A DNA stretch of 31,313 nt from a virus: positions 1 through 31,313 of IMG/VR virus record IMGVR_UViG_3300034523_000042; one strand, written 5' to 3'. Of the stretch, positions 5,418-31,313 are shown in pieces. The notes below the pieces were generated by a model. The model made no database searches. It was not told the origin of the DNA and saw only the letters and a program-made list of their open reading frames with translations. Position numbers and translations under genes: made by a program. Within the stretch, counting starts at the first letter, position 1, and each line of letters begins with the position of its first letter.

Positions 5418-6019
5418 CCATCGAACGGAAGCCGGCCAAGCCGAAAAAATGCCGCGTTGCTACGTGCAGGGCCTCATTCTTCCCTTCGCGGATGGGCCAG
5501 GCGGTGTGCAGTCCGGCCTGCGCAATGATCGACGCGCCACGGCATGAGCCGAAGGCGCGTAAGGCCCTGGCCGACATCGAGCGCGCCGAGATCAAGGTCC
5601 GCAAGGAGAAGCTGAAGAGTAGGGCGGATCACCTTCGCGAAGCCCAGGCCGCGGTGAACGAGTACGTGCGCCTGCGCGACGCGCACCTGCCGTGCATCAG
5701 CTGCGACTCAATGCCGAACGATAACGACCTGATGACGGGTAGCCGCTGGGACGCTGGGCATTACCGATCTGTCGGCGCCTGTCCTGAGCTTCGCTTCGAG
5801 CCGCTGAACATCCATCGCCAGTGCGTGAAGTGCAATCGCAACCTGTCCGGCAATGCGGTGGAGTATCGCATTCGCCTGGTGCAGCGCATCGGCGCCGAAA
5901 AGCTGGCCTGGCTGGAGGGCCTGCACGCGCCCAGCAAGTACACCGTGGATGAGATTAAGGCCATCAAGGCCAAATACCGGGCAATGACCAAAGAACTGAA
6001 AAAGGGGCAGGCAGCATGA
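5414..6019 (+). CDS. ninG: NinG/Rap-type recombination nuclease
   Basis: I chose the ATG at 5414 (overlapping the upstream stop); the longer frame from 5369 has an unlikely N-terminus. The 201-residue protein has an N-terminal zinc motif (C13-C18, C32-C36), a charged helix (residues about 48-80), and a NinG core with C94-xx-C97 (CISC), DAGHYRSVGACPELRF, and HRQCVKCNRNLSG with C137 and C140. Lambda NinG (Rap) is a structure-specific endonuclease that resolves recombination intermediates such as Holliday junctions and D-loops. It acts in the same early operon as NinB. Identification is from family motifs. Confidence 0.93.
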   Translation: MTIERKPAKPKKCRVATCRASFFPSRMGQAVCSPACAMIDAPRHEPKARKALADIERAEIKVRKEKLKSRADHLREAQAAVNEYVRLRDAHLPCISCDSMPNDNDLMTGSRWDAGHYRSVGACPELRFEPLNIHRQCVKCNRNLSGNAVEYRIRLVQRIGAEKLAWLEGLHAPSKYTVDEIKAIKAKYRAMTKELKKGQAA

Positions 6020-6702
6020 AACTGATCAACGCAAGGCAGGTATGGACAGAGGCTCAGCACGAATCGAATGCGTCGATCAGCGCAGTGGCAATCGATAGGG
6101 CGGAGTCGGCACCCGTCAAGACCGGAGGGCGCATCGGCAAGCGCGAGGCGTCATTCCCAGCCTTGGGCAGCGAGACGGGGGAGGAAGCAGGGCGCTTTAT
6201 CGTGCCTGGGCAGCGGATCAGCATCAGCGAAACCCGGCGCACATCCGCTGGCAACTCCACAGCCCGCGCCGCACACCTGGCAACCATAGGTAAAGTATTG
6301 CGCGCTATCGGCACCCTTCCATTCCAGGAGCAGCAGTTCGGGCACTACCTGTATCACCCATGCATGACGCTCGCTCACGTGCTCAACGCTGAGAAGCTGA
6401 TATGGCGCTGCGTTGACTTTTCCTGCCTGACCGAAGCCAAGGAGGCGAAAGTGCATTGCCTTGTGACGATGGCCCTGCAGTCTTACAAGGTCGAGGCTCA
6501 TGACGGCGCTCAGTGGGGTCCCGCTCGTATCGCCGAGGCCATGCTCACACTCTACGGGGTCCACATAGAGCCAAAAGTGTGGGATCGGGACTGGAAAGAA
6601 CCGTGGAATTTCCTGCGAGACGCCATTGAGGAAGTGGATATTCGTGTTCAGCAGCCTGTATGGCAGGTCATTCACGCAGAAAAAGACGATGAAGCGGCAT
6701 AA
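6016..6702 (+). CDS. Probable late-gene regulator in the Q (antiterminator) position
   Basis: The 228-residue product is the last gene of the early operon, 4-base coupled to ninG, and is followed at once by a possible promoter (6705-6734) and terminator (6779-6802). This is the lambda Q, pR', tR' arrangement. The protein has a polar, variable first 80 residues and a helical core at about 85-215, including GKVLRAIGTLPFQEQQFGHY, CMTLAHVLNAEKLIWRCVDF and a W/Y-rich C-terminal part. It lacks an obvious zinc finger, so it is not a close lambda-type Q. The assignment rests mainly on location; it could be an unrelated early protein. Confidence 0.5.
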   Translation: MKLINARQVWTEAQHESNASISAVAIDRAESAPVKTGGRIGKREASFPALGSETGEEAGRFIVPGQRISISETRRTSAGNSTARAAHLATIGKVLRAIGTLPFQEQQFGHYLYHPCMTLAHVLNAEKLIWRCVDFSCLTEAKEAKVHCLVTMALQSYKVEAHDGAQWGPARIAEAMLTLYGVHIEPKVWDRDWKEPWNFLRDAIEEVDIRVQQPVWQVIHAEKDDEAA

Positions 6703-6704
6703 AG

Positions 6705-6734
6705 TTGTTGTCATGTTGGGGTTTTTGGTGTAAT
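6705..6734 (+). promoter_or_regulatory. Possible late promoter (pR'-like)
   Basis: TTGTTG at 6705-6710 and TGTAAT at 6729-6734 are separated by 18 bases, a fair sigma70 match that starts two bases after the Q-position gene. Transcription would begin near 6741 and meet the hairpin at 6779-6802 within about 60 bases, as expected for a promoter controlled by antitermination. Sequence match only; no pause element was identified with confidence. Confidence 0.4.
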
Positions 6735-6778
6735 TTTCCCATAGTGCACAAGTAACGCGAAACGCACATGAAAATCTG

Positions 6779-6802
6779 AACCCGGCCAAGCGTCGGGTTT
6801 TG
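6779..6802 (+). terminator. Terminator downstream of the Q-position gene (tR'-like)
   Basis: AACCCG at 6779-6784 pairs with CGGGTT at 6794-6799, with a 9-base loop, followed by TTG after a 4-base T run (6798-6801). It is in the leader between the possible late promoter and the late genes. The stem is short, so efficiency is uncertain. Confidence 0.55.
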
Positions 6803-6956: not shown

Positions 6957-7469
6957 ATGAAAAAAACAATCCTATCGGCTTTGCTTTTTTGCGCTGTTTG
7001 TAACGGCGCTCAAGCTGTAGAACTTTCAGGTGCCCTCGGCGCCACTAGTCAGGGAGGCTTGACCGCCCGTACAGCACTGGGGTTCAACTGGGACAAGGCG
7101 TGGTTGGAAAGCTCTACAGGTAAGCTGACCGGGTACTGGGACTTGGGTTACACATATTGGGAGTCGGGGAAGGAGGCTGGTGCTCGCCACTCTGTTTCCT
7201 TCTCCCCTGTGTTCGTTTACGAGTTTGGTCAAGGCGACATCAAGCCTTTCATCGAGGCCGGCGTCGGTGTCGCGATGTTTTCGGGTACCAACGCTGGTGA
7301 CCAGAAATTCGGATCTTCCTTCAACTTCGAAGACCGAATTGGCGCAGGCTTAAAGTTCGGTGATACGCAGAAGGTAGGTGTCCGGGCTACTCACTATTCA
7401 AACGCCGGCATCAAAGAACCGAACGATGGCATTGAGTCTTACGCACTTTTCTACAGTCATTCGATTTGA
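6957..7469 (+). CDS. pagL: Lipid A 3-O-deacylase, PagL family (cargo gene)
   Basis: The 170-residue product has a 20-residue signal peptide (MKKTILSALLFCAVCNGAQA) and then an 8-stranded-barrel-type sequence. The PagL active-site block THYSNAGIKEPNDGIE gives H146, S148 and E160; subtracting the signal peptide these become 126, 128 and 140, the numbers of the P. aeruginosa catalytic triad. PagL sits in the outer membrane and removes the 3-O acyl chain of lipid A. It is flanked by AT-rich DNA and by terminators on both sides and lies between the early operon and the lysis genes, so it is likely a lysogenic-conversion (moron) gene. It ends in Ile, not the usual aromatic residue. No clear SD is seen. 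Confidence 0.93.
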   Translation: MKKTILSALLFCAVCNGAQAVELSGALGATSQGGLTARTALGFNWDKAWLESSTGKLTGYWDLGYTYWESGKEAGARHSVSFSPVFVYEFGQGDIKPFIEAGVGVAMFSGTNAGDQKFGSSFNFEDRIGAGLKFGDTQKVGVRATHYSNAGIKEPNDGIESYALFYSHSI

Positions 7470-7479
7470 TGTGAACAGG

Positions 7480-7506
7480 AACCCGGCCACCGCGCCGGGT
7501 TTTTTA
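7480..7506 (+). terminator. Terminator after pagL
   Basis: AACCCGGC at 7480-7487 pairs with GCCGGGTT at 7494-7501 (8 bp, 6-base loop), and six T residues run from 7500 to 7505. The bases GGTTTTTTATTGCCT that close it are identical to the end of the terminator before the J-like gene (24852-24866). Confidence 0.88.
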
Positions 7507-7570
7507 TTGCCTAAATCTCCCAAACCCCTCAGAGCCTCTGACTTGTCACGCTGATGAGGGACCTATTCAG

Positions 7571-19040: not shown

Positions 19041-19046
19041 TTGACG

Positions 19047-19379
19047 ATGAAGCGATTGATGCTGGTGGGGATTATGGGCGCGGTTTTGTCTGCGTGCGGT
19101 AATAGCGACATAAATGGCGCCAGAGAAGAGGTGAAACGCAACCTCAATGACTCGGCGTCAGCTGAATTCAGGGGGGAGAAGGTTTATCGGCTTCCAGACA
19201 ATACGGTTGTTTGTGGCGAGGTAAACGCCAAAAACAGCTATGGAGGATATGCCGGCTTCTCCAAGTATGTCGTTGAGGGCGTCGGAACCAGGCCTGTGGC
19301 GAAGTTCGGCGAAAACATGCAGACAGACGTCAATATCACCTGTCAGTTTGCGGAACTGAATTCAAAGCTAAAGCAGTAG
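19047..19379 (+). CDS. Small outer-membrane-type lipoprotein (cargo gene)
   Basis: I chose the ATG at 19047, with AAAGGGAG at 19033-19040; TTG at 19041 would add two residues. The 110-residue product has a lipoprotein signal: a hydrophobic core (LMLVGIMGAVL) and lipobox LSAC with C17, followed by Gly, so export to the outer membrane is likely. The mature part contains an EVKRNLNDSASAEFRGEKVY stretch, then a VVCGEVNAKNSYGGYAGFSK block. It has its own promoter and terminator and lies between chaperone and tape measure genes, the classic place for a moron. The role (exclusion, envelope change or fitness) is unknown. Confidence 0.85.
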   Translation: MKRLMLVGIMGAVLSACGNSDINGAREEVKRNLNDSASAEFRGEKVYRLPDNTVVCGEVNAKNSYGGYAGFSKYVVEGVGTRPVAKFGENMQTDVNITCQFAELNSKLKQ

Positions 19380-19395: not shown

Positions 19396-19420
19396 AGCCC
19401 GCCACTGAGCGGGCTTTTTT
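19396..19420 (+). terminator. Terminator after the lipoprotein gene, linked to the tape measure SD
   Basis: AGCCCGC at 19396-19402 and GCGGGCT at 19409-19415 form a 7-bp stem, CACTGA loop, then TTTTT. The next bases are GTGCCTGGAGAAAAGT and the ATG of the tape measure gene. This is one of four near-identical terminator-SD linkers. Confidence 0.9.
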
Positions 19421-19436
19421 GTGCCTGGAGAAAAGT

Positions 19437-22382
19437 ATGACGTCGATTGCTGAACTCGGCATTAAGGTCGATTCGACGGATGCTGCGCAGGCAAGCACCG
19501 ACCTAGACAAGCTCACTGCTGCCGGAACGCGCGCAGAAAAGGCGGCCGAGGGTGTGGCTCGCGGCGCCGACAAGGCGACTGCTTCGATGAAGAAGCAGAA
19601 GGACGAACTATCAGACCTGCTTGGCGAGATTGACCCAACAGTAAAAGCCTTGGGCCGTCTCGACGAACTTGAAACGAAGCTCGCCAAGCAAAAGAAGCTG
19701 GGAGCGCTGGATGCGTCTACCTTCAGCGAGTACCAGGGCAAGATCGATCAGTCGCGGGCGAACCTGGGCAGATTCGACGACAGCCTTACTCGCACCGGAA
19801 ACACGGCGAAGCAGACGGCGGCAGCGCTGCGCGGCGTGCCCGCTCAGTTCACTGACATTGCAGTCTCTCTCCAGGGAGGTCAGGCGCCGCTGACGGTTCT
19901 GCTACAGCAGGGCGGCCAGCTGAAAGATATGTTCGGCGGGATTGCTCCAGCGGCGAAGGCATTGGGCGGTTACGTCCTTGGCTTGATTAACCCTTTCACG
20001 CTTGCAGCGGCAGCCGTGGGCGCGCTGGGGCTCGCTTACTACAAGGGGAGCGAAGAGGCAGATGCTTACAACAATGCACTGATCCTAAGCGGCAACGTTG
20101 CAGGCACGAGTGCGGCCCAGCTGAGCGACATGGCTCGCCAGGTCAGCGCAACCGTGGGAACGACAGGGGCAGCTGCCGAAGTTCTGGCAAAGCTTGCCGG
20201 CAACGGCAGGATCGCTAGCGAAAGTTTCGGGCAGATCACCGAAGCATCTCTTCAAATGGAAAGGGCCACGGGTCGAGCCATTGACGAGACAATCGCGGAG
20301 TTTGCGAAAATAGCGAAGGACCCGGTCGCCGCGGCCAAAGAACTCAACGATCAGTACCATTTCCTCACCGCCTCGGTGTACGAGCAGATTGTCGCTCTCA
20401 AGCAGCAGGGCGATACCGTCGGTGCGGCAAAATTGCTGACGGATACCTATGCAAGCACGATTGAGACCCGCTCGGGTGAAATCACCCAGAACCTCGGCAT
20501 CATAGAGCGCGGCTGGAATGCAATACGGGATGCCGCCAAGGGCGCTCTGGATGCTACAAAGGAGATTGGCCGGACTCAAACCCTTGAGCAACAAGCCGAG
20601 GTCATTCGCCAAAGGCTGCAAACAGGGCAGGGCCGCGGCGGTCGCGCCGCCGCGATGGGAATCGAGACGCGCGATACCGCCAAAGACACCAAGGACCTTG
20701 CGTTTCTCGAACTCCAAATCGAAGCCGAGAAAGCCCGTACTAAGTACGCAGGCGACCGCCAAAAGATCCAGGACAAGGGCATCGAGGCCGAGCAGGAACT
20801 TGAGCGCATTCGTGTTGCGTCCTACACCAACAAGCAGAAGCGCGACAAGGAAGAGGAAGCGTACCTGCGCAAGATCGCTGCTTTGCGTGAGGCGAATCCA
20901 AACAGCCCACTGCTCGCCCAGAAGAACATTGATCGCGACCTGGCGAACATCCGCGACAAGTACAAGGACCCGAAGGGCGCAAGCACCCCGGTCGACCTGA
21001 CCACATTCAACGATTCGAAAAACCAGCTGAATGCCGTGCTCAGCTACTACAAGAGCGCGGAGAAGGAGCTGGAGTCCGCGCAGAAGGCCGGCATCATCTC
21101 CCAGGAGAGTTACACCTCCCAGCGCATTGCCTTACTCCAGCAGCAGGCTACTGAGGTCAAATCCTCCTACGAGGCGGAGATCTCGGCGCTTGAGGCGGCG
21201 AAGGGCAAGGCCGGCACGTCGGCAGCGCAGCGCATCCAGCTGGACCAGAAGATCGCCGACGCCAGGGCCAACATGGTCAAGGCTCAGAAGGAGTCGGAGA
21301 GCGAGCTTTCGGTTATCGCGACGAATGAGCAGGGGCGGCTCAAGAAGCAGGAACTCGCCATCAAGTCGTACACCGATGCGCTTGATCAGCAGAACGCGGC
21401 TTTGCAGCGCGCCGGCAGCCGGGCAGCGGAAGGTGTGGGCCTGAGCGACCGCCAGAACGCCATCAACGGCGATCTGAACGGTATTTCAGACCGTGCCAAC
21501 CAGCAGCGCCTGGATCTGGCGCGCGACAAGGCCGACGCGGCGCGCAACATGAGCGCCGAGGAGTACCAGGCCAAGCTTGAGGCGATCAATCGCAGCGAGC
21601 GCGACCTGACGCAGACCACGCTCAGCAACTATGAGCAGATGTCCGTGGCGCAAAGCGACTGGCGCAACGGTGCGACTTCTGCGTTCAGCAACTACTTGGA
21701 CTCGGCTCGGGATGTGGCTGGGCAGACTCGCAGCCTGTTCACCAACGCTTTCAGCTCCATGGAAGATGCAGTGGCCAGCTTCGTCACCAACGGCAAGTTT
21801 TCGTTCGCTGACTTCACCAAATCGATTCTCGCTGATATGGCGCGGATCGCCACGCGGCAGGCTGCTTCCGGCTTGCTGTCGGGCTTGGCGGGCACTGCAA
21901 TTGGTGCCTGGTTCGGTGGTGGTGGGTCGGCCGGTGCAACGAGCTTCGGCTCTGATATCGGCGGTGCGATCACGGCCAATGCCAAGGGCGGCGTTTACGA
22001 CTCCCCAAGCCTGTCGAGTTTCAGCAACCAGGTACACGACAAGCCGCAGATGTTCGCCTTCGCCAAGGGTGCGGGGATCTTCGCCGAGGCCGGGCCGGAG
22101 GCAATCATGCCGCTGACCAGGACGGCGGGCGGCGAGCTTGGGGTTCGGGCGCTGAGTGGCGGGGGTGGTAGCGGGGGCGGCGGTGGCAGCACCGAGTCGA
22201 AGACGGAGATCACCATCAACATCAATCGTAATGGTGAAGCTGATGCGACCGCAGATACTGCGATGGGTCAAAAGTTGGCCCCGCAGTTCCTTACCTTGAT
22301 CCGGGCTGAGATCGCAGCAAATGAGCGCAGAACGTTGAGCCCCAGCGGGGGCGCAACGTGGCGCGTGATCAATGGGAGGTAA
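19437..22382 (+). CDS. Tail tape measure protein, lambda H-like
   Basis: I chose the ATG at 19437 behind CCTGGAGAAA; the TTG at 19419 lies in the terminator. The 981-residue protein has a tape measure N-terminal region (residues about 1-300; AALRGVPAQFTDIAVSLQGG is characteristic), hydrophobic segments near 165-210 (GGYVLGLINPFTLAAAAVGA), long charged coiled coils at about 400-740, and a lambda-type C-terminal block (SFADFTKSILADMARIATRQ near 795-815). A glycine-rich tail follows at 910-930. At about 1.5 angstrom per residue, it would specify a tail near 150 nm. It also is ejected and helps DNA passage. Confidence 0.96.
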   Translation: MTSIAELGIKVDSTDAAQASTDLDKLTAAGTRAEKAAEGVARGADKATASMKKQKDELSDLLGEIDPTVKALGRLDELETKLAKQKKLGALDASTFSEYQGKIDQSRANLGRFDDSLTRTGNTAKQTAAALRGVPAQFTDIAVSLQGGQAPLTVLLQQGGQLKDMFGGIAPAAKALGGYVLGLINPFTLAAAAVGALGLAYYKGSEEADAYNNALILSGNVAGTSAAQLSDMARQVSATVGTTGAAAEVLAKLAGNGRIASESFGQITEASLQMERATGRAIDETIAEFAKIAKDPVAAAKELNDQYHFLTASVYEQIVALKQQGDTVGAAKLLTDTYASTIETRSGEITQNLGIIERGWNAIRDAAKGALDATKEIGRTQTLEQQAEVIRQRLQTGQGRGGRAAAMGIETRDTAKDTKDLAFLELQIEAEKARTKYAGDRQKIQDKGIEAEQELERIRVASYTNKQKRDKEEEAYLRKIAALREANPNSPLLAQKNIDRDLANIRDKYKDPKGASTPVDLTTFNDSKNQLNAVLSYYKSAEKELESAQKAGIISQESYTSQRIALLQQQATEVKSSYEAEISALEAAKGKAGTSAAQRIQLDQKIADARANMVKAQKESESELSVIATNEQGRLKKQELAIKSYTDALDQQNAALQRAGSRAAEGVGLSDRQNAINGDLNGISDRANQQRLDLARDKADAARNMSAEEYQAKLEAINRSERDLTQTTLSNYEQMSVAQSDWRNGATSAFSNYLDSARDVAGQTRSLFTNAFSSMEDAVASFVTNGKFSFADFTKSILADMARIATRQAASGLLSGLAGTAIGAWFGGGGSAGATSFGSDIGGAITANAKGGVYDSPSLSSFSNQVHDKPQMFAFAKGAGIFAEAGPEAIMPLTRTAGGELGVRALSGGGGSGGGGGSTESKTEITININRNGEADATADTAMGQKLAPQFLTLIRAEIAANERRTLSPSGGATWRVINGR

Positions 22383-22384
22383 CC

Positions 22385-22723
22385 ATGGCGATTGAAACGT
22401 TCACCTGGGCCACCCAGCACGGGGAGGCGCCGACGCTTGACTATAGGACCAGGGAATCGCGATTTGGCGGGGGCTATAAGCAAGTTGTCGGCGACGGGCC
22501 CAACAATAAAGAAGATGCATACCCCATAACCCACACAGGCAACACCGCCACGGCTCTGGCCATGATGGCGTTCTTCGACCGGCACCAGGGCGCCAAGGCA
22601 TTCCTGTGGACCACGCCCCTGGGCCAGCTCGGCCTGTTCACCTGCAAGAACCCAACCCCTACGCCCATGGGCGGGGGCGTATTCAAAGTGACAGCGACGT
22701 TCGAGCGCGCTTTCCACCCGTAA
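22385..22723 (+). CDS. Minor tail protein, lambda M-like
   Basis: I chose the ATG at 22385 behind GGGAGGT at 22374-22380; an upstream frame start lies inside the tape measure gene. The 112-residue product has the phage minor tail (lambda M) pattern: an initial ETFTWATQHG, DYRTRESRFGGGYKQVVGDG near 20-40, and an end of the type FKVTATFERAFHP. It joins the tail tip around the tape measure end. The gene starts 2 bases after the tape measure stop, and precedes L as in lambda. Confidence 0.93.
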   Translation: MAIETFTWATQHGEAPTLDYRTRESRFGGGYKQVVGDGPNNKEDAYPITHTGNTATALAMMAFFDRHQGAKAFLWTTPLGQLGLFTCKNPTPTPMGGGVFKVTATFERAFHP

Positions 22724-22733
22724 AGGCCAATCC

Positions 22734-23483
22734 ATGTCGCTGATCAATGCCATCCAGACTCTTGAACCTGGTAACGAAGTCATGCTGTTCGAGTTGGACG
22801 GCAGCGATTACGGAGCCGATGTCCTGCGCTTCCACGGCCATGCGATACCGCATACGCCTGCGGAGCTGCTGGCCGCCGGCGTGAATGCTGACCAGCTACC
22901 GGCCAAGTCGATATGGTGGAAGGGCGAAGAGTACGGCGCCTGGCCCATGCAGTACGAGGGTAGCGAGGCGAACGGCGACGGCACCGCCGTACGACCGAAG
23001 CTGTCGGTCGGCAATGTCAATGGGCGGATCACTGCGCTCTGCCTGGCCTTCGAGGATCTGCTCGAGTTCAAGCTGACCATCCGTAACACGCTGGTCGAGT
23101 TCCTCGACGCCGTGAACTTCGAAGGCGGAAACCCCACGGCCGATCCCACCCAGGAATCGATCGAGGTCTGGTATGTCGACCAGAAGACCAACGAGGACGG
23201 CGAGACGGTCAGCTGGGACTTGGCCAGCCCTGGCGATGTCGGCGGCGAAACCATCGGCCGGCAGATGACGACGTTGTGCCACTGGTGCCTCACCGGTGGT
23301 TACCGAGGTCCCAACTGCGGCTACACCGGGCCCTACGTCACTAAGGACGGGATCGTTACCGACAACCCTGAACTGGATGTGTGCGACGCCACCCTGGGCA
23401 AGGGCTGTATCCCGCGTTTTGGCGAGGGCAACCCCTTGCCGTTCGGTGGATTCCCCGCCGTTTCCTTGATAGCTCGGAGCTGA
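22734..23483 (+). CDS. Minor tail protein, lambda L-like (probable Fe-S protein)
   Basis: The 249-residue protein has the lambda L pattern: a beta-rich N-terminal half with LFELDGSDYGADVLRFHGHA and IWWKGEEYGAWPMQYEGSEA, and a C-terminal part with cysteines C182, C185, C195, C217 and C225. Lambda L binds a 4Fe-4S cluster with four C-terminal cysteines; here C185, C195, C217 and C225 have nearly the same spacing. It forms part of the tail-tip hub between M and J. The C-terminus holds NPLPFGGFPAVSLI, common in this family. Confidence 0.93.
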   Translation: MSLINAIQTLEPGNEVMLFELDGSDYGADVLRFHGHAIPHTPAELLAAGVNADQLPAKSIWWKGEEYGAWPMQYEGSEANGDGTAVRPKLSVGNVNGRITALCLAFEDLLEFKLTIRNTLVEFLDAVNFEGGNPTADPTQESIEVWYVDQKTNEDGETVSWDLASPGDVGGETIGRQMTTLCHWCLTGGYRGPNCGYTGPYVTKDGIVTDNPELDVCDATLGKGCIPRFGEGNPLPFGGFPAVSLIARS

Positions 23484-23485
23484 CC

Positions 23486-24241
23486 ATGCGCAAACACATC
23501 ATTGCAGCCGTCCAGGCGCATGCGGCTGCGGAGTACCCGAAAGAGTGCTGCGGGCTGGTACTGGCCGTGGGCAGGGCGCAGAAATACTTCCCGTGCCGGA
23601 ACATCGCCACCGAGCCGAACGAAGAGTTCAGGCTGGAACCAGAGGACTACGCTGCGGCGGAAGACCAAGGCGAGGTGATTGGCATAGTCCACTCGCACCC
23701 GGACGCCACCAGCAGGCCATCATCGCGCGACCTTGCTATGTGCGAGGCCACGGCGCTGCCCTGGCACATCTTGTCTTGGCCCGAAGGAGACCTCAGGACG
23801 ATCACGCCGTCGGGCGCCGTGCCGCTGCTCAAGCGACCGTTTGTTCATGGGGCGTGGGATTGCTGGGCTATATGCGCAGAGTGGTATCAGCGCGAGTGGG
23901 GGCTTGAGTTTGAAGCCTTCAAGCGCACCGATGGCTGGTGGGAGAGCGCAGAAAGCACCAGCCTGTACGAGGCGAACTACGCCGCTGCTGGCTTCGAGCA
24001 AGTCGACAGCCCACAGCGCGGCGACATGATTGTGATGGAGGTAGGCCGCACAGCTCACCCGAACCACGCAGGGATATACCTGGGGACTGAACCATCCCTG
24101 CCAGGTGAAGATTCCGGCGTGTTCGGCCCTGGGCCATTCGTTCTTCACCACCTCTACGGACGCCCGTCAGAGGTGATCGTCTACGGCGGACCTTGGCTGC
24201 AGCGCACCCGTTTGATTCTTCGACACAAGGAGGCCCGATGA
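23486..24241 (+). CDS. Tail tip protein, lambda K-like (JAMM plus NlpC/P60)
   Basis: I chose the ATG at 23486, 2 bases after the L stop; the longer frame is inside L. The 251-residue protein has an N-terminal JAMM/Mov34 metalloprotease-like domain with E20, H69-x-H71, S79 and D82, then an NlpC/P60 peptidase with C126 (WDCWAIC) and H194 (PNHAGIYLG), and a further His near HHLYGRP. Lambda K has the same two domains and acts in tail tip assembly and perhaps in cell wall digestion at entry. All key residues appear intact. Confidence 0.95.
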   Translation: MRKHIIAAVQAHAAAEYPKECCGLVLAVGRAQKYFPCRNIATEPNEEFRLEPEDYAAAEDQGEVIGIVHSHPDATSRPSSRDLAMCEATALPWHILSWPEGDLRTITPSGAVPLLKRPFVHGAWDCWAICAEWYQREWGLEFEAFKRTDGWWESAESTSLYEANYAAAGFEQVDSPQRGDMIVMEVGRTAHPNHAGIYLGTEPSLPGEDSGVFGPGPFVLHHLYGRPSEVIVYGGPWLQRTRLILRHKEAR

Positions 24242-24819
24242 GCGCCATCGTTTATTCGCCGATGACCACTATCAAGTTGTCCGGCTCGCTGGCCCAGAAG
24301 TTCGGCAGGCTGCACCGGCGTCAAATTGACTCGGGCGACACCTGGGAGGTTTTCCGGGCGCTGAATTCCACAATTGACGGATTCGAGGCGGAGATCCGCC
24401 GCCTTGATCGCCTAGGCCTTCGGTTCGCCATATTCCGCAACAGGAAGAACGTAGGGCCGGATGAGTTCGGTCGTGGAGGATCGAAAGAAATAAGGATTAT
24501 TCCAGTAGTAGAAGGCGGCAAGCGCGCCGGGCTGCTGCAGACCGTCCTTGGCGTGATTTTGATCGTTTTGAGCCCTTTCACAAATGGTGCAACGCTGGCC
24601 CCGGGGATTGCATTGGCCGCCGGCGGCGTGATCCAGATGCTGAGCCCTCAGGCCGCGGGCCTCAAGCAGAGCGCATCACCGGAAAACATGCCCAGCTATG
24701 CATTCGGCAGCGCAAAGAACACCACGGCCAGCGGCAACCCTGTCCCCATCTGCATCGGTGACCGCCGATGGGGCGGGGCGATTATCTCGGCATCGATCTA
24801 CGCCGAAGACAAGACATAA
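24238..24819 (+). CDS. Tail assembly protein, lambda I-like
   Basis: I chose the ATG at 24238 with AAGGAGG at 24227-24233; it overlaps the K stop by 4 bases. The 193-residue protein has the lambda I pattern: a ubiquitin-like N-terminal part (TTIKLSGSLAQKFGRLHRRQ, then RALNSTIDGFEAEIRRLDRL), a hydrophobic double segment at about 98-135 (LLQTVLGVILIVLSPF and LAPGIALAAGGVIQML), and a C-terminal GNPVPICIGDRRWGGAIISA block. It is needed for tail tip assembly between K and J, possibly not present in the virion. Confidence 0.93.
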   Translation: MSAIVYSPMTTIKLSGSLAQKFGRLHRRQIDSGDTWEVFRALNSTIDGFEAEIRRLDRLGLRFAIFRNRKNVGPDEFGRGGSKEIRIIPVVEGGKRAGLLQTVLGVILIVLSPFTNGATLAPGIALAAGGVIQMLSPQAAGLKQSASPENMPSYAFGSAKNTTASGNPVPICIGDRRWGGAIISASIYAEDKT

Positions 24820-24835
24820 CCACGACGCATCGAGC

Positions 24836-24860
24836 AAGCCGGCCATGAGCCGGTTTTTTA
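24836..24860 (+). terminator. Terminator before the J-like gene, linked to its SD
   Basis: AAGCCGGC at 24836-24843 pairs with GCCGGTTT at 24849-24856 (with one G-U), CATGA loop, and a T-run to 24859. It is followed by ATTGCCTGGAGGAAAGC and the ATG of J. Read-through by an antiterminated polymerase would be needed for J expression from the tail operon. Confidence 0.88.
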
Positions 24861-24876
24861 TTGCCTGGAGGAAAGC

Positions 24877-27800
24877 ATGGGCGCATCACAGAAGCTGGAA
24901 ATTCACGGTGCCAAAGGCGGCGAGAGCAAGCCCAAGTCTCCGGTAGAGGCACCCGACAGCCTGCGCTCCACCAACGTGGCCAAGATCCTGATCGCCGTGG
25001 GGGAGGGTGAATTTGACGGCACGCCCACCGCGCGCGACATCTTCCTCGACAACACTCCCATCCAGGATGCCAGCGGAAATTTCAACTTCACCAACGTGAA
25101 GTGGGACTGGCGGCCGGGCTCTGTGGAGCAGACCTACATTCCAGGCATCCCATCGGTCGACAACGAGACCTCTCTGAATATTGAGCTGCGCAGCGGTACG
25201 CCGTGGGTTCAGTCGCTGACCAATCTACAACTGTCGGCAGCACGTATACGCCTGGCCACGCCGCGACTGGCGAGCCAGGACGCAGAAGGCAACATCAACG
25301 GCTACCGTATTGAATATGCGGTCGATGTGGCAACCGACGGCGGGGCATATCAGCAGGTTCTGGTGGGCGCTATGGACGGAAAGACCACCACCCGCTACGA
25401 GCGGTCTCTGCGAATAGACCTGCCACCGGCTACCAGCGGCTGGCTGATCCGCGTTCGCCGCCTCACGCCAAACTCGCAGAACACCGACAAAGTCGCGGAC
25501 AGCCTCTTCATCGCCGGCTACACCCAGGTAATCGACGCAAAGCTGCGCTATCCGAACACTGCATTGCTGTTCGTTGAATTCGACGCCGAGCAGTTCACCA
25601 ACATCCCGGCCGTCACCGTGAAGTGCAAGGCCCGCCGCTGGCAGGTGCCGAGCAACTATGACCCTGTGTCCCGCAGCTACACCGGCGCATGGGAAGGCAC
25701 CATGAAGGAGGCCTGGACCAACAACCCGGCCTGGATCACCTACGGGATCTGCACCCAGGACCGTTTCGGCCTGGGCCGCCGCATCAAGCCGTGGATGGTG
25801 GACAAGTGGGAGCTGTACCGCATCGCGCAATACTGCGACCAGATGGTGCCCAATGGTGCTGATGGCGTTGAGCCGCGCTTCCTGTGCGACATGAACCTGC
25901 AGGGCAAGGCCGACGCTTGGTCACTGCTGCGCGACATCGCCGGTATCTATCGCGGGATGACGTACTGGGCCCAGGGCCAGTTGGTCATGCAGGCTGATAT
26001 GCCTCGGGCGCAGGACATCGATTACGTCTTCACCCGGTCCAACGTCATCGACGGCAAGATCTCCTACGGCAGCGCCTCGGCGAAGACCCGCTTCACTCGC
26101 TGTCTGGTCAGCTACGACAACCCGCTCAACAACTACGACACCGACGTCACGGTCTATTCAGACCTGCCGCTACAGCGCCGCCTGGGCGACAAGCCGACTG
26201 AGATCAGTGCCATCGGTTGCACCCGGGCATCTGAAGCCCAGCGCCGCGCTAAATGGCTGGTGCTGAGCAATAACCAGGACCGCACCATCAGCTTCAGGAC
26301 CGGCATGGAAGGCCGCATCCCGCTGCCCGGCTTCATTATCCCTGTTGCAGACTCGCTGCTGGCTGGCCGGGAGATCGGTGGGCGAATCGCGGCGGCGGCG
26401 GGCAAGGTCATCACCCTGGATCGCGACACCATGGCGAAGGCTGGCGACCGGCTGGTGATCAACCTCCCTGGCGGGCGTGCAGAAGGGCGCACCGTGGAGA
26501 GCGTGAACGGCCGCAACGTAACCGTGACCGTTGCCTACAGCGAGGCGCCGGCTGCACAGCTTCAGTGGGCAATCGACGCTGACGACCTGGCGATCCCTCT
26601 ATATAGAGTGATGAGGACCGCACGTACGCCTGAGGGCGATTACGACATCAGTGCCTTGCAGTACGAGCCAAGTAAGTTTCCCAGCATCGACACCGGCGCG
26701 CGCCTGGAAGAGCGCCCAATCAGCGTGATCCCAATCACCGTGGTTCCGGCGCCGGCCACCGTGACCATTACTTCGAACGTATCGATCGACCAGGGCCTGG
26801 CCATCAGCACCATGAACATCTCATGGCCAGCCGTTACCGGTGCCGTCGCGTACGACGTGGAGTGGCGCAAGGACAACGGGAACTGGATCAAGGTGCAGCG
26901 CACGGGTTCAACGAGCGTTGACGTCACCGGCATTTACTCGGGCGCCTACCTGGCCCGGGTGCGCGCCGTAAGTGCTTTCGACATCTCGTCGGTGTGGAAA
27001 AACTCCGTACTCACCGACCTGCAAGGGAAGGTCGGCCTTCCGCCGGCGGTGTCGTTCCTGACCACCACCAGCCTAGTTTATGGCATCGGTATCCAGTGGG
27101 GATTCCCACCAGGTGCCGAAGACACCCAGCGGACGGAGCTCTGGTACAGCTCGTCGCCGGACCTAACCACTGCGGAGAAGCTGAGCGACTTCAGCTACCC
27201 GCAAGCCAAGCACGAAATGCAGAATATCTTGGCAGGGGCGAGCTTCTACTTCTGGGCTCGCCTGGTGGACCGTACCGGCAACCTCGGACCTTTCTGGCCG
27301 ATCCCGGGCGCCGTGAATGGCCGGGCCAGTTCTGATCAGACGGAGTACGACAAGTACTTCGCCGAGAAGATTGGCAAGGGTGCGCTCTACCAGAGCCTGC
27401 GAGAAGAAATCGATCTGATTACTGGTGATGGGCCGGGCTCGGTCAACGACCGTTTAGAGAAAGCCAAGCAGGAGTTGGAGAACCTGATCTCTGAAGTGGT
27501 GGATGCACTGGAGTACGTTCCAACAAAGACCTACGCCAAGGGCGATATGGTTCGGGTGGGCCAGCAGCTATTCCAGGCGACCAAGGCGGTACCGGTCGAC
27601 ACCATTCCGCCTAACGCCAACTACTGGTTCAACCTAGGCACCATCGCCGAAACGAATGCAGCGATGGCCCTGGAAATCAGTCAGAACAAGTCCGCTATCG
27701 AGGAAGTGGACGGTAAGGTCACGGCCACTGCTGAACGCCTGGAAGGCGTCTATGCATTGGTGAAATCTGATTCTGCAGGCTCGGAGCAGGGCAGTGCGGG

Positions 27801-28575
27801 TGACGACACCGCCTCGGCCGGGGCCTGGTCGCTGATGTCCGCAATTGCTGAGCGGGATTTTGCTCAGTCGCAGCGGACGGATATTGTCGAAGCCAAGGTC
27901 CAAGAAAACACAGCCAGCATTCTGGATGTATCCAAAACGGCAGCGAGTGCTACGTCTGCTCTGGCAGAGCGAGTTACCACCATTGGGGCCAAGGTCAGCA
28001 GTAACGAGGCAGCTTTCAAGCAGGAAACCTCCGCGCTAGCAGACGCTGATAAGGCATTGGCTCAAAAGATTGAAACCGTGCAAGCGTCATCCGGCGAGAA
28101 CGCGGCTGCAATTCAGGTGGTTAGCAAGGCCCAAGCCACCACTGACGGGAAGGTTTCGTCGATGACGACGATCAAGGCCGAAACCACCAGCAACGGCAAG
28201 AAGGTGATTGCAGGGCTTTCCCTGGGCTCTGACGGCAATACATCGGAGATCCTCGCGTTTGCTCAACGCTTCGCAATTGTGGATGAGGTGAGCGGGCAAC
28301 TGATAACGCCATTCGTGGTGAGTGGTGGCCAGGTCTTCATAAACCAAGCGGTCATCAATAAGGTCTTCATCCAGGAGATCATTCTGGGAATGACGCTGAA
28401 ATCAGAGACGGTCGACTCCAAGGGGCGGCCGTTGCTGGAGATCAACGTCAAGGCCGGCACGTTCACGCTTCGCAGCGCCGGCACCGGTGGCTCGACACTG
28501 CTCAATAACGATGGCCTTTCGGTGTACGACATCAACGAGCTTCTGCGTGTGGTGGTGGGGAGGCTTTCGCCATGA
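24877..28575 (+). CDS. Central tail fibre / host-specificity protein, lambda J-like
   Basis: CCTGGAGGAAA at 24864-24874 precedes the ATG at 24877. The 1232-residue protein has the J-like hub region (residues about 1-600: KILIAVGEGEFDGTPTARDI, later FLCDMNLQGKADAWSLLRDI), a fibronectin type III domain at about 622-708 (GAVAYDVEWRKDNGNWIKVQ), a second at about 725-810, coiled-coil or helical segments at about 855-1080, and a DUF1983-like C-terminal domain (about 1090-1210; GLSLGSDGNTSEILAFAQRF). It closes the tail tip and contacts the host receptor. The stop overlaps the next gene. Confidence 0.96.
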   Translation: MGASQKLEIHGAKGGESKPKSPVEAPDSLRSTNVAKILIAVGEGEFDGTPTARDIFLDNTPIQDASGNFNFTNVKWDWRPGSVEQTYIPGIPSVDNETSLNIELRSGTPWVQSLTNLQLSAARIRLATPRLASQDAEGNINGYRIEYAVDVATDGGAYQQVLVGAMDGKTTTRYERSLRIDLPPATSGWLIRVRRLTPNSQNTDKVADSLFIAGYTQVIDAKLRYPNTALLFVEFDAEQFTNIPAVTVKCKARRWQVPSNYDPVSRSYTGAWEGTMKEAWTNNPAWITYGICTQDRFGLGRRIKPWMVDKWELYRIAQYCDQMVPNGADGVEPRFLCDMNLQGKADAWSLLRDIAGIYRGMTYWAQGQLVMQADMPRAQDIDYVFTRSNVIDGKISYGSASAKTRFTRCLVSYDNPLNNYDTDVTVYSDLPLQRRLGDKPTEISAIGCTRASEAQRRAKWLVLSNNQDRTISFRTGMEGRIPLPGFIIPVADSLLAGREIGGRIAAAAGKVITLDRDTMAKAGDRLVINLPGGRAEGRTVESVNGRNVTVTVAYSEAPAAQLQWAIDADDLAIPLYRVMRTARTPEGDYDISALQYEPSKFPSIDTGARLEERPISVIPITVVPAPATVTITSNVSIDQGLAISTMNISWPAVTGAVAYDVEWRKDNGNWIKVQRTGSTSVDVTGIYSGAYLARVRAVSAFDISSVWKNSVLTDLQGKVGLPPAVSFLTTTSLVYGIGIQWGFPPGAEDTQRTELWYSSSPDLTTAEKLSDFSYPQAKHEMQNILAGASFYFWARLVDRTGNLGPFWPIPGAVNGRASSDQTEYDKYFAEKIGKGALYQSLREEIDLITGDGPGSVNDRLEKAKQELENLISEVVDALEYVPTKTYAKGDMVRVGQQLFQATKAVPVDTIPPNANYWFNLGTIAETNAAMALEISQNKSAIEEVDGKVTATAERLEGVYALVKSDSAGSEQGSAGDDTASAGAWSLMSAIAERDFAQSQRTDIVEAKVQENTASILDVSKTAASATSALAERVTTIGAKVSSNEAAFKQETSALADADKALAQKIETVQASSGENAAAIQVVSKAQATTDGKVSSMTTIKAETTSNGKKVIAGLSLGSDGNTSEILAFAQRFAIVDEVSGQLITPFVVSGGQVFINQAVINKVFIQEIILGMTLKSETVDSKGRPLLEINVKAGTFTLRSAGTGGSTLLNNDGLSVYDINELLRVVVGRLSP

Positions 28576-28898
28576 CCTATGGGGTGAGGACGTGGAGCGA
28601 GAGTGGCGTGCTCGAAATGGATACCGACAGCTACACCTATCAGGTGCTCCACAATGCAGTCTATACGCTCGCCATGGGCGCCGTAGTTACAGCAAACATT
28701 GCCGGGTTCAATCCGGCAACATGCACAGCCGTCATACTTCCTACCCAGGCCGCAGCTAACAACTACTGCTACAGCGCTATGCCGTTTATGTCGGTAGGCG
28801 TCGGTTCGGTTGTTGTACGTTCAAAACACCCAAATGAACCTGGCGCTATAGGATCGACAATACAGTTCAGGTTGCTTGTAATGAGGTTCAAAAATTGA
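28572..28898 (+). CDS. Tail-tip or fibre-associated protein (108 aa)
   Basis: The 108-residue product is coupled to J by a 4-base overlap. It begins with a short beta motif (YGVRTWSESGVLEMDTDSYT) common to small proteins encoded after J-like genes, where the pattern G-x-x-V-x-x-x-x-G-x-x-x-x-D recurs. The middle contains hydrophobic strands, and no enzyme motif is seen. The next protein begins with a related motif (FGLSVVNDGSYVQIDSEQPR), so the two may be diverged copies. Likely a virion or fibre accessory protein. Confidence 0.72.
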   Translation: MTYGVRTWSESGVLEMDTDSYTYQVLHNAVYTLAMGAVVTANIAGFNPATCTAVILPTQAAANNYCYSAMPFMSVGVGSVVVRSKHPNEPGAIGSTIQFRLLVMRFKN

Positions 28899-29581
28899 AG
28901 TTCGGTCTATCTGTTGTAAACGATGGAAGCTATGTACAGATAGACTCAGAGCAACCTAGGCTTTGTGCGCTGTACAGTGGAACCTATCAGGCATCCGGCA
29001 GTTCGTCGGTGTCAGTGTCGTTCCCATCCGCCATAACCACGCCGGAGCCGCCGTGCGTATTCATTCAGAACAGCTCGGCTAGACCGAATGAGCTATACAC
29101 GAGCATGACCATAAGCGGCGGTCCTGGTGCTTGGACTGGGTTTTCAATAACGTCCCTGAACATTGACTTCAGGCCAACAGGCAAGTGGTTTGCGGCAGTG
29201 TTCGCGTCAATCACCAAGGCCGATTACGGGCTCAGGATGTGGGGCGCAAATGGCGTGTTGATTTTCGACTCAGGGGCTGCTCCGGTGATCTTCACGAGGG
29301 CCAATAACTCATGGTCATATCAGGGGCAGATAGTTCTAAATGCGACAGCACAGGCTTACTACTGGGCGAATGGATCTGTTGCGCCACTGCAATCTGATGA
29401 GTACTTTATGATCAACCCATTCTCGCGAGGAATACTACAGAACCACACAAACTGGCTAACATCAGCTGTAAGGTTCAACTATTCAGAGAACAGGCTACAG
29501 GTGTTTGGGATTAGCGCTCTCTCACCATGGACAAATATCGGCGCCCCCGGCGCTGTATTTGCCAGACTCCCCGGCACCTGA
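28895..29581 (+). CDS. Tail-tip or fibre-associated protein, TTG start (228 aa)
   Basis: The start is a TTG at 28895 overlapping the upstream stop (TTGA); GAGG lies at about 28882-28885. The 228-residue product is beta-rich with many Ser, Gly, Asn and aromatic residues (YSGTYQASGSSSVSVSFPSA; WTGFSITSLNIDFRPTGKWF), like receptor-binding or fibre-tip proteins. DNA is noticeably less GC-rich than J. Its stop lies about 28 bases before a terminator. Family unknown; the start motif resembles the previous gene product. Confidence 0.72.
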   Translation: MKFGLSVVNDGSYVQIDSEQPRLCALYSGTYQASGSSSVSVSFPSAITTPEPPCVFIQNSSARPNELYTSMTISGGPGAWTGFSITSLNIDFRPTGKWFAAVFASITKADYGLRMWGANGVLIFDSGAAPVIFTRANNSWSYQGQIVLNATAQAYYWANGSVAPLQSDEYFMINPFSRGILQNHTNWLTSAVRFNYSENRLQVFGISALSPWTNIGAPGAVFARLPGT

Positions 29582-29608
29582 TCGGATACTCATTAATCGA
29601 TCTAAACG

Positions 29609-29630
29609 ACCCGCTATGCGGGTATTTTTT
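29609..29630 (+). terminator. Terminator before the tail fibre gene, linked to its SD
   Basis: ACCCGC at 29609-29614 and GCGGGT at 29618-29623 form a 6-bp stem with a TAT loop, followed by ATTTTTT. Next come CGCCTGGAGAAAACT and the fibre ATG. It is the third of four similar linkers. Confidence 0.88.
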
Positions 29631-29645
29631 CGCCTGGAGAAAACT

Positions 29646-30527
29646 ATGGCAAGACAAGAAATTATTCTCGGTACGCCGCCTACAGGTCTCGGAGGCGACA
29701 CGCCGCGAGTGGCGAACTCAAAGATAAATGCAATGACCTCGGAACTCTACCAGGGCATTGGCACACCTACTTCGCCTCTTCCGGTTTCGAAAGGTGGGAC
29801 TGGGGGAACTTCACAAGCTACCGCGCAGACGGGTTTAGGTTTAGTCAAAGTTACCTCTAGTATTGATAGTACAAGCGGGAATCTGCTACTAGCAGGTTGG
29901 GGTGGTCTTGGGGGGCAATTGCAAAGTAGGTCATACACGCCCGACCAAATGTTTACTACCCAAGCCGGCGGTTCATTCTCATACGCTAATAACGGGGGAG
30001 CCTACCCGGCTGGTGTTACCGACGGCGCACTGATCAACATGGGGTATGACACCGCCGGTCAGTTTGCCTATCAACTTTTGGGTGATTGGCGTACGGGTAG
30101 TCTTTATAGAAGGGGGCGCGCTGCCGGTACTAGCGGTGCATGGGGGAAAATCTACGATTCTTTAAACTCCGTAGCTGATCCCATTAGCTCAGGCGGGCTT
30201 ATGTCCTCAGCTCTAATCGGAGGATACCTCGTAAACAGGTATGCGAACGGTGAGGTTAACGTAAGGGGGATAGCCCCTCTTACAGCTACGATTGCGGCTA
30301 ACGCTTTCACAACTATTTTTGTATCCCTACCCATTACTTTGGTTAACGGCGCTCTTGGAGCTGCATTTAAGTCTACTACCAACGCGCAACCACAAATAAC
30401 TTACGACTTCTACGGGGTGGTCGCTGAATACCTTTCAGACCTAAGCACGATAGCCTTCATCATCAGAAACGGGGCAACCGCTCAAACGTTTCAACCAACT
30501 ATTAACGTGTGGGGGCGCTGGAAATGA
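29646..30527 (+). CDS. Tail fibre protein
   Basis: I chose the ATG at 29646 behind CCTGGAGAAA; the upstream frame starts in the previous gene. The 293-residue protein has the typical fibre start LGTPPTGLGGDTPRVANSKI, followed by PVSKGGTGGTSQATAQTGLG near 50-70, the glycine-rich repeat motif seen in many phage side-fibre proteins. A GSLYRRGRAAGTSGAWGKIY segment near 160-175 is like the fibre GxW-K/R-x-Y/W motif. The C-terminal third is beta-rich and is probably the receptor-binding tip. DNA is AT-richer than the head and tail genes. Confidence 0.88.
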   Translation: MARQEIILGTPPTGLGGDTPRVANSKINAMTSELYQGIGTPTSPLPVSKGGTGGTSQATAQTGLGLVKVTSSIDSTSGNLLLAGWGGLGGQLQSRSYTPDQMFTTQAGGSFSYANNGGAYPAGVTDGALINMGYDTAGQFAYQLLGDWRTGSLYRRGRAAGTSGAWGKIYDSLNSVADPISSGGLMSSALIGGYLVNRYANGEVNVRGIAPLTATIAANAFTTIFVSLPITLVNGALGAAFKSTTNAQPQITYDFYGVVAEYLSDLSTIAFIIRNGATAQTFQPTINVWGRWK

Positions 30528-30898
30528 AAATTACAATGTTTCCTTTCTTGTCCGACTGGCCGCTTGAGGCTTCTGTTTCTGGTGATGTGATCACGATAAA
30601 CGGAGAAGAAATTGACTTGTCCGGTATTCCAGACGGATTCCGTTTACCGGGTGACGCTGTAGGCAATAAATTTTTTGTAGGAACCGAATATGTCGAGCGC
30701 ATCGGCAAAACTCTGCATTTTACTTTGCGTCTTCCAGTTCAGTGGGATAGCCCGGAAGAATACCGCAATCCTCCCGAACCTATCGTTATCGACGCCCGTA
30801 GCGGCCCGGTGAAGTTTCCCGATACCTCGCCTTTGGTGATCCCTGCAACTGAACTTCCTGATATCCGAGGAGGAAAAGAAAATGGTGGACTTGAGTAA
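30524..30898 (+). CDS. Fibre-associated phage protein of unknown function (124 aa)
   Basis: I chose the ATG at 30524, overlapping the fibre stop (ATGA). The 124-residue product begins MKITMFPFLSDWPLEASVSG, has ITINGEEIDLSGIPDGFRLP at about 25-44, and an HFTLRLPVQWDSPEEYRNPP block at 69-88. Such proteins commonly follow a Pseudomonas tail fibre gene and may be fibre-assembly or virion proteins. The C-terminus overlaps the next gene. No enzyme motif is visible. Confidence 0.72.
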   Translation: MKITMFPFLSDWPLEASVSGDVITINGEEIDLSGIPDGFRLPGDAVGNKFFVGTEYVERIGKTLHFTLRLPVQWDSPEEYRNPPEPIVIDARSGPVKFPDTSPLVIPATELPDIRGGKENGGLE

Positions 30899-31094
30899 GC
30901 TTGAACCGATTAAAACGGCGCAAGACATAACGGATGAATTGAGCCTGGGTCAGGCTCGGGCGTATCTGAGCCAGACCAACTGGCATGCCTTCGCTCTGCT
31001 TGAGGATGGCACACCGATTCCGGACGACATCAAAGACGCACGCGCAGCAGCTCGCGCAACGATCAATCGGTTGAGCCCTCCACCAGCGTCTTGA
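30882..31094 (+). CDS. Tail fibre assembly-like protein (70 aa)
   Basis: GAGGAGGAAA at about 30866-30876 gives a strong SD for ATG 30882, overlapping the previous gene by 17 bases. The 70-residue product has the short fibre-assembly protein pattern: RAYLSQTNWHAFALLEDGTP, then IPDDIKDARAAARATI, which resembles the C-terminal part of larger tail fibre assembly chaperones. It probably helps fold or trimerise the fibre encoded upstream. It ends before the fourth linker. Confidence 0.72.
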   Translation: MVDLSKLEPIKTAQDITDELSLGQARAYLSQTNWHAFALLEDGTPIPDDIKDARAAARATINRLSPPPAS

Positions 31095-31113
31095 GTTTTT
31101 GCCAAACACCGCC

Positions 31114-31137
31114 ACCCGCCACGAGCGGGTATTTTTT
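31114..31137 (+). terminator. Terminator before the endolysin gene, linked to its SD
   Basis: ACCCGC at 31114-31119 and GCGGGT at 31125-31130 form a 6-bp stem, CACGA loop, followed by ATTTTTTT. Next are GCCTGGAGAAAGTT and the endolysin ATG. It is the fourth of the similar linkers. Confidence 0.88.
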
Positions 31138-31152
31138 TGCCTGGAGAAAGTT

Positions 31153-31313
31153 ATGCCGATCACCGAGCAGCAATTGCTGCATATCCTCCCGAACGCCGGC
31201 CGCCAAGCCGGCGTTTTTGTTCCTGCCTTAAACACGGCCATGAGCCGTTACGGCATCGTGGGCACCGTGCGGGTGGCGGCGTTCATCGCCCAAGTAGGGC
31301 ACGAATCTGGACA
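31153..31313 (+). CDS. Endolysin, GH19 (chitinase-like) family, partial
   Basis: The ATG at 31153 is 7 bases after a strong SD (CCTGGAGAAA). The first 53 residues contain TEQQLLHILPNAGRQAGVFV, then LNTAMSRYGIVGTVRVAAFI and AQVGHESG, the start of phage GH19 endolysins; the Glu in HESG is the expected general acid/base. The enzyme would cleave the glycan backbone of peptidoglycan after holin action. The rest of the gene is beyond the window. A terminator-like hairpin lies inside codons 14-21. Confidence 0.9.
   Translation, partial: MPITEQQLLHILPNAGRQAGVFVPALNTAMSRYGIVGTVRVAAFIAQVGHESG
31192..31218 (+). terminator. Terminator-like hairpin inside the start of the endolysin gene
   Basis: AACGCCGGC at 31192-31200 and GCCGGCGTT at 31207-31215 make a perfect 9-bp stem with a 6-base loop, followed by TTTG (T-run 31214-31218). 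It forms part of the coding sequence for NAGRQAGVF. It may be fortuitous or an attenuation site controlled by translation. Confidence 0.5.

Follow-up and report, generated by a model that had tools for sequence, protein, structure and literature searches.

Why should essential late genes of a phage start directly behind what look like transcription terminators, and why should the letters that join terminator to gene start be nearly identical at several places in one genome? The question is raised by a 31,313-base IMG/VR fragment of a Pseudomonas siphophage, IMGVR_UViG_3300034523_000042 (the window, meaning the whole stretch that was analyzed), which carries every late gene from terminase to endolysin on its + strand and parts of which are matched by phiPSA1, MR15, phiAH14a and PseuP_222. 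Four of its late genes, those for the tape measure (TMP), J, the tail fibre and the endolysin, are each preceded by an element that we call a linker: a hairpin, a T-run and GCCTGGAG(A/G)AA, which includes a Shine–Dalgarno (SD) sequence, with the ATG exactly 14 nt past the G of GCCT. The original prediction had placed the four linkers at these positions and had described three of the hairpin loops as of CA(N)xGA type and the fourth as TAT, and on both counts it was accurate. We consider it likely that the linkers are intrinsic terminators abutting independent translation starts, that they close slots for accessory (moron) genes, and that they are read through with the help of a Q-class antiterminator.

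The anatomy is that of an intrinsic terminator, with a GC hairpin running directly into a U-tract. The pattern TTTTTN{0,4}GCCTGGAGRAA is found at 4 places on the + strand of the record and nowhere on the - strand, and a reversed control pattern has no match in the record. Folding of whole linkers gives no energy excess over shuffled sequence (z -0.2 to -1.8), as expected for short hairpins in longer stretches. For the J hairpin, covariation in a fixed register leaves 88.2% of cells paired, compared with 83.9% on average and 87.3% at most after shuffling; the effect is modest, as the rows include many near-identical ones and some with another loop length.

Terminators at the ends of accessory slots

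The evidence that carries our reading comes from gene maps of 80 relatives, selected by J protein similarity alone, which form few clades, such that the counts given here are not independent. Linkers occupy a few fixed places in these maps: before J, before the endolysin gene and often before the fibre gene, and before I or TMP only in some phages. Where K and I are contiguous, with a 4 nt overlap, no terminator precedes I (0/23 loci); where 0.4–3.5 kb of extra genes separate them, a terminator stands directly before I in 46 of 47 loci, the sole exception, L414, having an imperfect hairpin and T-run. For the tail chaperone and TMP, a terminator was called in 1/25 contiguous loci, a call that proved false, and in 9 of the 11 loci with cargo, the other two probably being cases of misplaced starts. 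At the I–J junction a terminator was called in 78 of 79 loci, be they with cargo (14) or without (65), and by eye a hairpin, T-run and SD lie ahead of J in all 80 relatives (80/80), with exact GCCTGGAG in 74. In the window itself, 463 nt separate TMP from the tail gene upstream of it, a space occupied by a lipoprotein-like gene (Table 1), whereas cargo-free relatives have 60 nt or less there; a member of the window's own group, L401, has neither cargo before TMP nor a linker there. In essence, linkers close moron slots, and would provide a stop for the cargo and an independent restart for the structural gene. This slot rule appears to be new, although every ingredient is known: it is not described in the literature searched, which did not extend to subscription journals.

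The inserted genes have the character of morons as defined previously (PMC4378225, PMC2629481), the latter a study of P22-like phages, whose late operon carries the ant moron. They are extra genes between neighbors that are adjacent in relatives, in both the K–I and the chaperone–TMP slots, and they end in a 3' terminator at the frequencies given above. Of the ten cargo proteins that we tested, three were of BRO-N/anti-repressor type; a fourth, a P63C protein, gave a weaker anti-repressor match, and two others matched Imm_superinfect ('immunity to superinfection') and a family of phage lipoproteins, respectively. Anti-repressor, superinfection-immunity and lipoprotein cargo are typical moron genes. 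A BRO-N/anti-repressor gene pair lies before TMP in one relative (L396, 2067-3453) and before I in another (L408, 4184-5570), with 1,388 bp in common at 91%, and cargo, as judged from such alignments, moves between slots. The window also encodes a PagL family lipid A 3-O-deacylase (6957-7469), which has the late promoter region on one side and the holin genes on the other and is closed by its own terminator; it is cargo that may alter the host surface.

Table 1. Positions of the linkers and associated features within the window
Feature	Coordinates	Strand	Description
Linker 1	19396..19436	+	Hairpin 19396-19415 AGCCCGC-CACTGA-GCGGGCT, U-tract, GCCTGGAGAAAAGT, then TMP ATG 19437
Linker 2	24836..24876	+	Hairpin 24836-24856 AAGCCGGC-CATGA-GCCGGTTT, TTTATT, GCCTGGAGGAAAGC, then J ATG 24877
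Linker 3	29609..29645	+	Hairpin 29609-29623 ACCCGC-TAT-GCGGGT, ATTTTTTC, GCCTGGAGAAAACT, then tail fibre ATG 29646
Linker 4	31114..31152	+	Hairpin 31114-31130 ACCCGC-CACGA-GCGGGT, ATTTTTTT, GCCTGGAGAAAGTT, then endolysin ATG 31153
Accessory lipoprotein-like gene	19041..19379	+	Fills the slot before TMP
pagL terminator	7480..7512	+	Trailer TTTTTTATTGCCT shared with the linkers, without a start site
Candidate Q-class late antiterminator	6016..6702	+	phrog_3373 (no function given), directly after NinG
pR'-like promoter	6708..6736	+	TTGTCA-17-TAATTT, conserved TGNNGGGGTTTT in spacer, -10-like CATAGT downstream
tR'-like terminator	6780..6798	+	ACCCGGC-CAAGC-GTCGGGT, then TTTGTGCGCCTG

Two generic signals behind the shared letters

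The length of the match between linkers had been taken to exceed what a terminator or an SD needs, a claim that fails once ordinary terminators are inspected. We sampled unselected phage terminators regardless of their downstream sequence (CCCGC stem, GCGGG and 5 T, with positions counted from the stem end), which gave 40 start-adjacent and 79 other sites. Whether or not a start codon adjoins, these have T at +9 in 77-93%, G at +10 in 57-58% and C at +11/+12 in 37-57% of cases, and 86 Pseudomonas host terminators show a comparable bias (T+9 71%, G+10 67%, T+13 44%, G+14 58%). Since phage and host terminators alike run into T(+9)-G(+10)-[CT]C[CT], and the remaining GGAGAAA serves as the SD, no recombination signal has to be invoked for the long match. 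GGAG itself occurs in 16/40 start-adjacent sites compared with 2/79 others, and GCC[CT]GGAG occurs jointly in 6/40 start-adjacent sites, close to the product of the separate frequencies (14/40 x 16/40). The pagL terminator, which ends in ...GGTTTTTTATTGCCT as the original prediction stated, is an ordinary terminator and shows that TGCCT is part of the terminator. The linkers, then, are two generic signals abutting, an ordinary terminator whose last letters are TGCCT and an SD that reads GGAGAAA.

The register of the linkers is strict. In 202 of 219 the stem ends 8-9 nt ahead of GCCT, base -10 is G in 213/219 and base -1 a pyrimidine in 218/219. RNA polymerase pauses at the consensus G(-10)Y(-1)G(+1), which the linker register fits, with the G of GCCT sitting just behind the release point. 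The 8-mer GCCTGGAG is itself not fixed among relatives, where it varies as [GA][CT]C[CTA]GGAG. Exact GCCT occurs in 61 of 123 non-J starts in relatives that are preceded by a terminator and carry GGAG; with about half of comparable starts having it, four identical copies in one genome are not very surprising.

The same joint extends well beyond the relatives of the window. A scan of viral contigs for TTTTTN{0,4}GCCTGGAGRAA returned at least 120 stretches. Among the matches listed, an ATG lies within reach at 129 of 134 viral sites and a hairpin as well at 124; in shuffled upstream sequence a hairpin appears at only 8 of 258 viral and genomic sites, again among the matches listed. The reversed control pattern yielded no match across 44 phage records. 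Prophage-like copies are mostly in Pseudomonas, with others in Enterobacter, Halomonas (Vreelandella), Marinobacter and Proteus, and the named phages that carry a linker include D3, PMG1, PAJU2, phiPSA1, phiAH14a, PseuP_222, HK75 and P2. The P2 joint (NC_001895, 26980-27021, L249) separates B from orf80 in the early operon, and a putative terminator is annotated there in the record. The genes behind the linker are unrelated across phages, so that the linker is not inherited with one gene family. No relevant paper found in the literature search names GCCTGGAG together with phage and terminator.

Two further observations concern terminators of this kind. Six loci in genome contigs (L130, L164, L171, L177, L209 and L217) have terminators followed by GCCTGGAGAAAA with no ATG behind; a few of them may use GTG starts, and others look like orphan joints or remnants. 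The endolysin gene of the window contains, in the 5' portion of its coding sequence (31191-31216), a strong terminator-like hairpin, GAACGCCGGCCGCCAAGCCGGCGTTT followed by TTTGTTCC, and the relative L363 has the same hairpin.

A putative Q-class antiterminator and rival readings

With essential late genes lying behind terminators, antitermination is needed, and the gene directly after NinG (6016-6702) presents itself as a candidate for supplying it. The gene has no Pfam match, and its family, phrog_3373, has 118 relatives in viral contigs. A promoter (TTGACA-17-TACTTT or close variants) lies about 8 nt past the stop codon in all 67 distinct relatives (67/67), and a terminator follows that promoter in 66/67, nearly always beginning at about +78. 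The element TGNNGGGGTTTT is conserved between the -35 and -10 of these promoters and is followed by CATAGT, which is -10-like by sequence match only. This is the genetic layout of the Q class: a late promoter with a spacer element, a -10-like pause sequence and a terminator close behind. An AlphaFold model of the gene product, of medium confidence (pLDDT 69), has lambda Q (7ubn, E 0.74) and AlpA (7xya, E 0.89) as its best PDB fold matches, the top two of 350,542 chains, and the best viral match of the same model, in BFVD, is to an 'Antitermination protein Q' (E 5.8e-4). The annotated antiterminator of PseuP_222 was considered as a homologue and ruled out, as it has no similarity to the gene. 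The late region holds fewer promoter-like sites than expected by chance. We conclude that gene 6016-6702 probably encodes a Q-class antiterminator, of putative activity, and that phrog_3373 is a probable new Q family, one that the literature covered by our search does not describe. The suggestion in the original prediction that the linkers are a shared expression device needing antitermination is well supported: terminators abut starts, they recur at the ends of accessory slots, and a Q-class candidate resides in the same record.

Taken together, these features suggest the following mechanism. A linker would close the 3' end of a late-operon slot into which accessory genes are, or were, inserted. 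In a lysogen, where antitermination is lacking, it would keep cargo transcripts from continuing into the genes for TMP, J, the fibre or lysis. Late in the lytic cycle, a Q-class protein, probably the product of gene 6016-6702, would be loaded onto RNA polymerase at the promoter that directly follows that gene and let the modified enzyme pass the linkers, and the SD fused to each terminator would restart translation of the structural gene, uncoupled from its old neighbor. The shared letters would be accounted for as a hairpin and a U-tract, some 9 nt long with a pyrimidine as its last base, then G(+10)[CT]C[CT], then the SD GGAGAAA.

Several points weigh against this proposal. The fold comparison draws on a model of medium confidence; the slot rule comprises fewer independent events than its counts imply, given the few clades; and sigma70 promoter scores at the starts of K–I cargo slots equal those of shuffled sequence, leaving autonomous cargo expression putative. 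In addition, J keeps its linker even where it has no cargo, and P2 has a linker in an early operon for which we know of no antiterminator. These last two points would suit leaky attenuators that set late-protein stoichiometry, with less TMP, J, fibre and lysin made than capsid, instead of insulating cargo, as would the report that the ant moron of P22 affects read-through into the tailspike gene (PMC2629481). Yet the I and TMP terminators are absent in all contiguous relatives, bar the one false call, although stoichiometric needs there should match, and a Q-class protein would override the terminators during lytic growth; attenuation as the main function is, to our minds, somewhat unlikely. 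It is also conceivable that the hairpin serves chiefly to stabilize or process the upstream message at its 3' end. Hairpins at 3' ends often protect RNA, and GC-rich hairpins do stand at the ends of the upstream genes, but the constant length of the U-tract and the register of G(-10), Y(-1) and G(+1) are marks of termination that a stability hairpin could do without, making such a role highly improbable.

Recombination presents a further alternative. Any two linkers share about 20 nt and could serve as homology handles, at which crossovers would swap cargo and terminator and keep the SD of the next gene. Moving upstream from J, homology is lost at 74-79% of linkers compared with 32-35% of other gapped junctions and 14-16% of tight junctions, and the same cargo is found in different slots. 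Moreover, in the J slot a GCGGG...TTC type of terminator occurs in half of the cargo-bearing loci (7 of 14) and in none of the 65 cargo-free ones, and the SD half is the same in both; with the hairpin type changing along with the cargo and the SD half staying, the terminator travels with the upstream gene and the SD with J. Against handles stand the lack of any excess downstream of J (63% at linkers vs 58-64%), the quiet J linker, where homology is lost in 13% of cases (mid-gene, 34%), and the extent of shared cargo: the match between L396 and L408 stops some 0.8-1 kb short of the linker, and other cargo common to the TMP and I slots ceases to match 0.5-2.5 kb short of it. Nor are linker junctions general exchange hotspots, since the unstratified loss is 0.48 compared with 0.67 at other gaps and the excess is confined to the region upstream of J. 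A conserved recombination sequence was likewise set aside as the principal explanation, because the common letters are a generic terminator trailer and SD that vary between slots. Homology handles seem to us quite unlikely, and we find the proposal that boundary sequences guide recombination weakly supported. On sequence comparison the linkers sit where modules join; that they cause the joining is unproven. A variant in which linkers are docking joints would combine both themes: cargo would bring its terminator, recombination inside the U-tract/GCCTGGAG would swap the terminator half, the SD half would stay with the structural gene, and the one joint would allow cargo to turn over and maintain expression of the essential late genes under a new Q family. 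This variant, too, we regard as unlikely.

Implications and known systems

If linkers are indeed terminators that close moron slots and are overridden by a Q-class protein, looking within late operons for intrinsic terminators that run straight into an SD and ATG becomes a simple sequence test for the ends of accessory slots in many phages, and superinfection-immunity and anti-repressor cargo could be found without homology. Not only would this aid discovery, it would explain why essential late genes survive one insertion after another: a stop comes with every insertion, and the fused start and antitermination restore expression. With phrog_3373 as a probable Q family, antitermination could be tested directly in Pseudomonas.

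Among known systems, the start-associated sequences (SAS) and extended SAS (ESAS) of cluster K mycobacteriophages (PMC3203893) invite comparison. They resemble linkers in being a repeated SD-like core just before many unrelated gene starts, and about half of SAS have an inverted repeat ahead; ESAS are 17-bp imperfect repeats that keep a consensus per subcluster. The SAS consensus GGGATAGGAGCCC nevertheless differs from the core here, GCCTGGAGAAA, and neither a terminator T-run nor a slot rule is reported in the part of the study available, whereas both are present for the linkers.

The moron 3' terminators of lambdoid phages, such as the P22-like ant moron (PMC2629481; PMC4378225), are alike in that extra genes between late neighbors are closed by a terminator, with cargo such as anti-repressors, superinfection immunity and lipoproteins. 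Here, in contrast, the terminator and the SD of the structural gene that follows form one unit, nearly the same joint is found at several slots of a single genome and is retained before J without cargo, and K–I cargo has no promoter signal above shuffled sequence.

For the antitermination step, the templates are lambda Q with pR' and tR', and AlpA of P. aeruginosa (PMC6606751, PMC7969949, PMC9371919), which share with the present system a protein gene followed by a promoter whose spacer holds a conserved element, a sequence resembling a -10 and an intrinsic terminator downstream. No sequence similarity to lambda Q or AlpA was found for the product of gene 6016-6702, although the two are the best fold matches of its pLDDT 69 model (E 0.7-0.9). 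The spacer element, too, is distinct: GGGGTTTT lies between -35 and -10 here, compared with GGGACG for AlpA and TGAGCA repeats for phage 21.

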